In this document: piece by piece, positions 13,282 through 39,211 of the stretch
Numbering within the stretch: position 1 is the first letter of the stretch
How the letters are laid out: each line of letters begins with the position of its first letter
Assembly (NCBI GenBank): GCA_963575745.1
Contig: CAUYUJ010014260.1
Location: 578,976-642,975, forward strand
DNA: 64,000 bases
Source of the DNA: Prorocentrum cordatum
Lineage: Eukaryota > Sar > Dinophyceae > Prorocentrales > Prorocentraceae
Direction: 5' to 3'
Notes under the pieces: model-generated
Databases searched by the model: none
The model's input: only the letters and a program-made list of their open reading frames with translations
What the model was told of the DNA's origin: nothing
Position numbers and translations under genes: made by a program

Positions 13282-13455
13282 GAGGCGTAGCGGTATCGGT
13301 AAATTTGGGCCACCTCTGACCCGGGGCGGTAAAAGAGGGCAGCAGGCCGTGGGGCAGCCAACACAAACAAACGCTTCCTATGGCCCGCGGCGCGCACCAG
13401 AACCACCTGCACCACCCGCCGGGGAGAAGGTTCGTCGTTTTGGCGGCGCGCACGA

Positions 13456-21059: not shown

Positions 21060-21090
21060 CCAAATGGCTTGAGCCAAAACGCTGCTACGG
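21060..21090 (-). other. Nested spliced-leader relic
   Basis: The minus strand starts CCGTAGC, then AGCG, then TTTTGGCTCAAG (21090-21068). These are the 5' and 3' parts of the dinoflagellate leader with an altered middle. It is followed immediately by CCATTTGG, the start of another leader 3' part. No gene is recognised downstream. Confidence 0.6.
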
Positions 21091-36975: not shown

Positions 36976-37013
36976 GGGAGCGAAAGAGAGAGAGAGAGAG
37001 AGAGAGAGCGGGC

Positions 37014-37052
<39 letters not shown>
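36976..37052. repeat. (GA)n microsatellite just past the GT8 stop codon
   Basis: About 75 bp of GA repeats with small interruptions begin 11 bp beyond the stop codon. A transcript of the gene would carry a CU-rich tract at the start of its 3' UTR. Confidence 0.9.
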
Positions 37053-37063
37053 CCCACCATTCA

Positions 37064-39110
37064 TTACCGGGAGCACTGTCTGTCCCATGCGCAGTCGTCG
37101 TATAAGTCTGAGAAGTTAAGCTGCGCAACTTCCCACAAAGATGTAGCAAGCCGCTGATCATCTGCCCATGCATACACCATTGTATTTGCTTGACGCATCA
37201 ACATATGGTGCGCGTGTTTCCACCGTCCACGAAACATGTGCCGGCTCCCATGAAGAACTACTGGCGTGCCCCAGTCAGACCCATCCTTGCAATCAGCGTC
37301 ATAACGCACATTGAACTCACAAGGGAAATCTTGAAGAGTTAAAATGCCCCTTTTAGCTAGCAAGTTCAGAACATCTTGATCGCCCATACGGAGCTGAAAC
37401 TTGCCCTCTTTGGCTTCTTCTAGAATCCAAAATATATGATCTCTGGTTCCTGCATTGATCCAAACATCACTGTTGATACCAAGGACACCGGAATTATCCG
37501 CCACCGTGCTCCCTGGCACGTCGAGGCGTGGTAGAATGCCACGTGCTGCCTGGAAGGGTCTCTGTGGTCTGCTGAAGGGCCCCCCAGCCTCTACCAGAGG
37601 ACAGTCGCGTGCATGTCCCCCTCGAGACGACGACGACGACGACGACGACCCTGGCGACGACGACGACGACGAGGACGACGACGACGACGACGCCGTCCCT
37701 GGGCGCTCCCGCGCCTCTGGCGCTCCCCAACGCGACCAAGATGCCCAATACTGCTTCGAAGACTGCCCAAGCAAGCCACCAAAGCCGCCAACGGTCCAAT
37801 ATGCCTCCACGACAGCCTAAGGTGGCCCCAAGACGGCCCAAGATGGCGTCAAGACTGCCCAAGAAGCTCTCAAGACGGCCAAGAGGGCTCCAAGAGAACC
37901 TCCAGCTGGGCCCGAAGAGGCCAGAGTAACTGCCTTTCCTTAGGATGTTGATGGATTTTCGCAGGATCGCCTTTTGAGGCTGCCGTCAGCTCAAGACGGC
38001 CCAGGAAGCCTCCAAATTGGCCTCAAGACTCAAGACGGCTCGCGAGGGCATGAAGAGGGCCCCAAGACGGCCCAGGGGTTCGCGAAGATGGCCCAAGAGC
38101 GGTCCAAAACGACCCCAAGTCTGCCCAAGGGAGCCCTCAAACTCATCGTCCCTAAGAGGGCCCCAAGACAACCCAGAGAGCCCCCCACGATTGACTCCAA
38201 AACCGCCCAGACGGTCCAAGAGCGCCCTTCGACAGCCGAAGGTGCCCCCAAGAGCGTCTGTCGCGCCCTCAAGGCGCTGCGAAGAGGCTCCCAAGAGTTC
38301 CCCCCCCAGCACCCAACACCCGAGGTATCACATGTGACGGCCTCCAGTGCCCCTTCGAACTGTTGCCACTCAGAATACTGCGCTGGCACAGTGGCGGGAC
38401 TTGCCGCAGGCAGTCGGATACCCATTCACACCAGCCCTGACTGCTTGCCGAGACGCGTATTCACCACAGCCTGGGCATGTAGCACTAACAACTTCTTCTG
38501 CCATAAAAATCCCAACGTCTGTGTGTTCTTCCATTTGCCGCAGCGCAGGTTCGATTGAATTCGTTGCGATAGCGTCGGAGTCCATGTAAAGTAAATGCTT
38601 GTATTGAGTCAAAACCTGAGGCACCCAAAGGCGGGCCGAAGCACAGTGCGCGAACAAATCAACAGTGTAAACCAAGTCCCGTATATTTAACTTGCTGCAC
38701 GAATATTTGATATGAAGTTGGTCTCGGTCTAAAATATCGCTGCACACGTCGTCCACAACACACCAAAGGTCCCACTCCCCATCTTTATATTGAACGGCCA
38801 ATGACGTCATAGAGTCAATCATCTCCGTACAGTACTGCACACCGCATCCTACCTGAAACACTGCGAACTTACTTCTGTTGTCACTCTTGCCACGCCACTG
38901 TTTGCTGTGCATCACGTCATGCGATCCATTCAGCATACCTTCGAGCGCAAACAGATAGGATTGATACTGCTCATGTCGCGAGGCATTGTTCTGTATATTG
39001 AACCATGGCTCAACAGGACTAACCCCATAGGTGGCACCCTCTGCCTGCACACGCAAAGCGTAAGATTTTACAGTAAAGCAGCAAGCACAGAACACGAATA
39101 ATGACTGCAT
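37064..39110 (-). CDS. GT8-family glycosyltransferase, GXYLT-like, two exons
   Basis: Probably a Golgi or secretory glycosyltransferase that moves a sugar, perhaps xylose, from a nucleotide sugar. Exon 1 runs 39110-38430 and exon 2 runs 37549-37064, giving 388 residues. Residues 1-24 look like a signal peptide or anchor, and N-x-S sites follow at about 42, 61 and 78. The region CASARLWVPQVL then LLYMDSDA (DxD metal site at 177-179) matches the GXYLT pattern of CASQRL then LLYVDTD. Exon 2 supplies DNSGVLGIN, GDQDVLN (about 283), FPCEFN and VLHGSR, in the GT8 order. The frame is open upstream of the ATG, and a pyrimidine-rich CCAG acceptor ends at 39171, so 39110 is the first ATG after a likely trans-splice site. 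An alternative splice pair (38432/37512) gives 375 residues. Donor sugar and acceptor are inferred from family resemblance only. Confidence 0.85.
37550..38429 (-). other. Intron of the GT8 gene
   Basis: The preferred pair is donor GGT|GTGAAT and acceptor CCCTTCCAG|GCAGC, which joins the frames in phase 0. A second pair, GCTG|GTGTGA with GTGCCAG|GGAGC, joins in phase 1 and drops 13 residues. Most of the intron is CAAGA-type degenerate array (about 37740-38320 on the plus strand), with an AT-richer spacer near 37930-37980 and a (GAC)n run at 37628-37692. Exon reading frames close shortly inside both edges. Confidence 0.75.
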
Positions 39111-39170
39111 GTTCTCAGAGGCCACGAGAACAGTAATGAAACAAGAAATGGTGACCACAAGTGTTCGGTT

Positions 39171-39186
39171 CTGGTGAAAGGAATGA
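39171..39186 (-). other. Probable trans-splice acceptor of the GT8 gene
   Basis: On the minus strand the bases CTCATTCCTTTCACCAG end in AG at 39172-39171 after a pyrimidine-rich tract, about 60 nt before the ATG. In dinoflagellates nuclear mRNAs receive a spliced leader at such a site. It could also be an ordinary acceptor following an unseen 5' exon. Confidence 0.5.
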
Positions 39187-39190
39187 GTTG

Positions 39191-39211
39191 CTTGAGCCAG
39201 GGTGGCTTGAA
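39191..39211 (-). other. Spliced-leader relic upstream of the GT8 gene
   Basis: The minus strand reads TTCAAG followed directly by CCACCCTGGCTCAAG. The 15-nt part matches the spliced-leader 3' part CCATTTTGGCTCAAG at 12 positions, and all three differences are T to C in the T run. The preceding TTCAAG resembles the CTCAAG end of another leader, the nested form expected after successive rounds of trans-splicing and reintegration. Confidence 0.6.

Follow-up and report, generated by a model that had tools for sequence, protein, structure and literature searches.

A glycosyltransferase family 8 gene of Prorocentrum cordatum with a worn spliced-leader relic upstream and an introner-like insert in its coding sequence

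The window analysed here is the whole 64,000-nt stretch of Prorocentrum cordatum DNA, and all positions refer to it. Its G+C content, taken from base counts, is 59.3%, near the 59.7% reported for the species. On the minus strand, the window carries a gene whose coding sequence lies in two parts, 39110–38418 (exon 1, 231 codons from the ATG to codon TAT, delimited by alignment to the relative P0001) and 37495–37064 (exon 2, including the stop codon TAA at 37066–37064). Joined, they encode 374 amino acids without an internal stop. A long CT microsatellite (minus strand, 36984–37052) starts 14 nt past the first base of the stop codon.

The 374-residue product matched the glycosyltransferase family 8 (GT8) domain PF01501 at 31.0 bits against a Pfam cut-off of 24.3, while exon 1 alone scored 14.3 bits and exon 2 alone gave no match. 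The same domain was matched by all seven relatives with which the product was aligned, and both aspartates of the DSD motif are invariant across the eight aligned sequences. A second protein search with a profile returned 12 proteins, namely these seven, P0008 (36% identity over 47%) and four distant ones. Against solved sequences the family profile gave eight matches, among them the bacterial GT8 protein 5gvv (the best, 2.3e-10), WbbM (1.5e-5), LARGE1 (3.9e-5), LgtC (1.7e-4) and XXYLT1 (0.083), with no GXYLT entry among the eight. The original prediction had called the gene GXYLT-like. Its assignment to GT8 stands, but since the profile matches are to bacterial GT8, WbbM, LARGE1 and LgtC, and to XXYLT1 only at an E-value of 0.083, the GXYLT label is a guess. 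A match to the Pfam family EBA-175_VI was discarded as below cut-off (15.7 versus 27 bits), and a structure model built from the seven rows had a mean pLDDT of 35.8. Searching genome contigs with P0001 gave four bacterial loci at 24–30% identity, which were left out of the analysis.

Between the two coding parts lie 922 nt (37496–38417, minus strand, one of two copies of AT included), which bears out the single intron-like interruption of about 0.9 kb predicted for the gene. Because all seven aligned relatives show an ungapped GYN(S/A/T)G, the insertion point can be fixed exactly: it separates codon TAT from codon AAT, and in each of these relatives the two are contiguous; P0008, outside the alignment, also reads GYNSGVLGIN. 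The placement is likewise based on the gap-free match over 409 residues that is obtained once the 922 nt are omitted (see below). These relatives look like transcripts, and a genomic intron at that codon would not be visible from them. The only bases common to both ends of the insert are AT, and therefore its exact ends are AT..GG, TC..GA or CC..AT, all of them non-standard; no GT/GC/GA-AG pairing was found at the exact ends. Near both ends lies an inverted repeat matching at 11 of 12 positions, a value reached in 17 of 2000 shuffles. Its left arm (CCGCCACTGTGC, 38386–38397) is not terminal, lying 20 nt inside the insert, and its right arm (37498–37509) is at the 3' end; both are given on the minus strand. 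The interior of the insert is similar to repeats elsewhere in the window, and its first 164 and last 121 nt had no further match there; a search of the window for another copy of the ends gave none.

Just inside the insert are candidate splice sites of the commonest dinoflagellate kinds, GC donors and AGG acceptors being reported at 51.4% and 79.7% of P. cordatum sites, respectively. Specifically, GCAAGT lies 13 nt from the left end and CAG/GG (slash, cut site) 17 nt from the right end, and together they delimit a putative GC-AGG intron (GCAAGT...GTGCCAG/GG, 37513–38404, minus strand). The chance of finding GCAAGT in a given 30 nt is 0.6%, and that of the looser GYRAGT is 1.7%. Splicing at this pair would leave 30 nt in frame and give 384 instead of 374 amino acids, the ten extra residues (PTACGSTVAD) being absent from all seven aligned relatives. 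The frame would likewise survive splicing at many other pairs, for example GT-AG at 38421/37508 (377 aa) and GT-AGG at 38431/37512 (375 aa) in a listing that comprised GT donors plus four GC hexamers only, so that a kept frame does not prove splicing. The exact junction fits the ancestral state, since omitting the insert exactly gives a GT8 score of 31.0 bits versus 25.1 with the ten extra residues. For these reasons the 384-residue GC-AG model, which came first, was rejected as the exact ancestral junction and kept as a possible scar only. GTGCCAG, a 7-nt repeat near both ends of the insert, was rejected as a target duplication, as splicing at 38389/37512 leaves 15 extra residues (389 versus 374 aa).

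Upstream of the gene and in its orientation, the genomic minus strand reads TTCAAG (39211–39206), CCACCCTGGCTCAAG (39205–39191), a further 80 nt (39190–39111) and the ATG at 39110. The second element is a worn relic of the spliced leader (SL), identical to the DinoRL sequence CCATTTTGGCTCAAG at 12 of 15 positions, with TTT changed to CCC, and it lies where the original prediction had put it. The 80 nt that follow form the remaining 5' UTR, which in frame 2 translation is open and in phase with the coding sequence. Taken alone, the match of the relic is not significant because seven window sites reach at least 12 of 15 (all positions, both strands), three of them inside a single plus-strand tandem repeat; among the 8128 positions directly preceded by an AG, two reach this value, the relic and 13279. 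Since the position of the relic is set independently by P0001, the chance that applies is that of a 12/15 match at one fixed position, 1.2e-5 with equal base frequencies. TTCAAG had also been counted as part of the relic; read as a second relic, it would imply two passages through mRNA. It is identical to CTCAAG at five of six bases, and by eye one of the five bases further upstream matches the SL. As any acceptor requires an AG, TTCAAG says little about a relic; it offers nothing beyond what an acceptor needs, and we rejected it as a sign of a second retroposition. It is best read as the trans-splice acceptor side, with the AG at 39207–39206, a placement based on the start of P0001 when the SL is joined.

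P0001 is a public relative of 409 amino acids (JGI source) that covers the whole gene, represents a different copy or species from the window gene, and has the N-terminus LAQATLAQATHSF / LAQATLAQATHSFHQNRTLVV. For comparison with it, the SL (...TTGGCTCAAG; ...TTTTGGCTCAAG) was fused to the window at 39205, the 922 nt were omitted and the product was translated by script. This junction model has 409 residues and aligned to P0001 from end to end without gaps, with 11 of the 409 residues different, one of them within the first 35. The unjoined genomic reading has a stop and IQATLAQ in place of the P0001 start. The 150 nt that precede the ATG contain eight AG sites, and because AAG/CCACCC (39206/39205) is the only one that yields this start, the relic would stand at +1 of the mRNA. 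At the second codon of the relic, P0001 has T and not the I expected from an unworn relic, and therefore at least one worn base is common to P0001 and the relic. P0001 is best read as an mRNA that would begin inside the SL. At the protein level, direct joining of the SL to the relic is thus found in this close relative, and the window copy would presumably be processed in the same way.

Two further sites in the window are stronger, full-length matches to the SL than the relic of the gene, and neither was part of the original prediction. When indels were allowed, the full SL was found with three edits at 21090 and at 13285, both on the minus strand, whereas none of 30 shuffles had a site with three edits or fewer (mean of 0.2 at four edits). 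The 9-mer TGGCTCAAG occurs four times, always on the minus strand, and two of 200 shuffles reached four occurrences. Together with the relic of the gene, the window thus holds three probable SL relics in one orientation. The near full-length site at 21090–21068 (CCGTAGCAGCGTTTTGGCTCAAG) comes after a pyrimidine-rich stretch and is followed by CCATTTGG, which resembles the beginning of an older relic. The site at 13285–13265 (CCTCAGCCATTGTGGCTCAAG) matches at 18 of 21 positions. About 1.4 kb beyond it lies a broken open reading frame (ORF), TWNAEWLLV...RNVRCFESSCNLHGILATQEVHGQ, which has no Pfam match and is reminiscent of a LINE endonuclease; the 13285 site may be a copy of an SL-capped retroelement. 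Pfam gave no match at E 0.01 for eight ORF pieces that lie beyond the other SL-like sites, 21090 among them. An SL-like site at 1532 was dismissed as weak (five edits, with shuffles averaging 1.9 such sites). No match to Rfam was found at gathering scores across the whole window. Two closely similar multi-kb stretches lie in tandem at about 10600–4000 (minus strand), where ORF pieces recur ~3.27 kb apart (for example, 9641–9321 and 6369–6049).

Outside the window, one scan of a viral contig collection found a full SL in a single contig, IMGVR_UViG_3300045993_001077. Within this contig of ~9–25% G+C, an island of ~48–50% G+C extends from 2766 to ~1785 on the minus strand, with an intact dinoflagellate SL at its start, an ORF of 254 amino acids (2700–1936) and an A-rich end (AAAAAATAAA); a second exact SL lies at 2913–2893. 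The only match of the 254-residue protein among public proteins was to itself. The island looks like either the copy, in a large virus, of a trans-spliced dinoflagellate mRNA or part of a chimeric contig. No relatives of P0001 were confirmed in viral contigs.

Our reading of the gene draws on portions of published work (PMC12014239, PMC6050394, PMC11453091, PMC10666404, PMC9860276, PMC7789003 and PMC3229502). According to excerpts of two of these papers, dinoflagellate retrogenes carry the SL followed by a relic that lacks its first seven bases, a loss explained by splicing of a new SL onto the AG within the old one (PMC12014239, PMC3229502). Because the layout seen here, an SL and then a truncated relic, is that of the published definition, the gene fits the reading as a retrogene. 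Its passage through mRNA, as originally predicted, is supported by a relic that starts where the SL is joined in the transcript-like P0001; two rounds, with TTCAAG as a second relic, are not supported. As a whole, the gene is best explained, and with good probability, as a DinoSL-relic retrogene of a dinoflagellate into which an introner-like piece was later inserted. An ancestral SL-capped GT8 mRNA would have been reverse transcribed and reinserted into the genome, as the relic suggests, after which the inner AG of the old SL, or its descendant TTCAAG, would have been taken over as the trans-splice acceptor. Every new mRNA would then carry the SL directly followed by the worn relic, and the protein would have remained intact. 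Afterwards, an introner-like piece of ~920 nt, rich in repeats, would have entered between codons TAT and AAT, probably to be cis-spliced out, either at the GC-AGG pair inside its ends, adding ten codons, or at its exact non-canonical ends.

A poly(A) remnant is a general mark of retrocopies and lies outside the definition of dinoflagellate retrogenes. No run of six or more A was present in the 1500 nt 3' of the stop codon, and the original 3' end of the gene may have given way to the CT microsatellite. A 3' side with no poly(A) remnant also speaks for an alternative in which the whole gene was never retroposed and a cDNA instead recombined with the gene where it stood, bringing the SL into the 5' end only, a course that would account for the relic plus a kept intron. 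Nothing here separates such recombination from retroposition, but the accepted reading of relics in the literature, as far as the excerpted sources go, is reintegration of mRNA, and we judge recombination in place to be improbable. Least credible of all is that the match to the SL arose by chance or through a local 15-bp duplication in an ordinary 5' UTR. The seven window sites of at least 12/15 speak for chance, and, had this stretch been duplicated in the P0001 genome, the same residues (LAQATLAQAT) would result; against both, the match begins at the exact base where the start of P0001 puts the SL junction, and the fixed-position figure given above weighs further against chance.

In dinoflagellates, genes are thought to shed introns through mRNA recycling and to acquire them from introners. 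For the origin of the insert, the best fit is an introner-like insertion that followed retroposition and, though unproven, this is the reading towards which we lean: the insert breaks an exon that is contiguous in the seven aligned relatives, and introners that carry an inverted repeat at each end are reported as enriched among P. cordatum introns. That the introner brought its own GC-AGG sites into the SL-relic gene, leaving a 30-nt coding scar when spliced, is a more doubtful proposal. If true, one gene would have been acted on in turn by mRNA recycling, which removes introns, and by introners, which supply them, and it would be a retrogene regaining an intron. It is unlikely that the intron is old and was retained when an SL-capped pre-mRNA still holding it was retroposed. 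Intron retention in dinoflagellate retrogenes is reported (PMC6050394), and relatives known as transcript-like proteins only would not reveal a gene intron at this codon, but the insert has no GT/GC/GA-AG pairing at its exact ends, and splicing at the best standard pair inside them would leave ten residues that the seven aligned relatives lack, where an old intron should splice cleanly. We consider equally unlikely a recent, disruptive and unspliced insertion, which would make the copy a fresh pseudogene of an SL-relic gene family. The insertion exactly between two codons, the non-canonical ends and an interior similar to window repeats agree with it, whereas the GCAAGT donor and CAG/GG acceptor just inside both ends, the kept frame and the two stop-free exons argue against it. 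The gene bears both a relic, the mark of mRNA recycling, whose wear is shared with a relative, and an introner-like insert, and the order of events thereby becomes testable at a single locus.

Like the introners described in the portions of PMC9860276, PMC7789003 and PMC10666404 considered here, the insert sits in an exon and has an inverted repeat near its ends, and those reported with both splice sites also add codons (12 bp in Aureococcus). It differs in having been seen as a single copy, in the 2 nt (AT) common to its ends, and in the 30 nt that would be added by a splicing that is putative. As a member of GT8, the product scores above the PF01501 cut-off, has the DSD motif and can be aligned with seven matching relatives, but it has no specific GXYLT match, and the profile places bacterial GT8, WbbM and LARGE1 closest to it among solved sequences. 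DinoSL-relic retrogenes reportedly go back to Slamovits and Keeling in 2008. A later survey (Haro 2025) counts 6544 such retrogenes across 37 of 43 species, with P. minimum contributing 477 (PMC12014239). With these the window gene shares an SL joined directly to a relic cut short at the inner AG, and its relic, 80 nt before the start codon, is inside the range of −50 to −100 given in the part of a review that treats them (PMC6050394). Intron-containing and intron-retaining cases are noted there as well. The relic of the window gene differs in being worn (12/15, TTT to CCC) and is known here from one locus. SL-relic retrogenes, some of them bearing introns, are thus already published, and the window gene adds one more.
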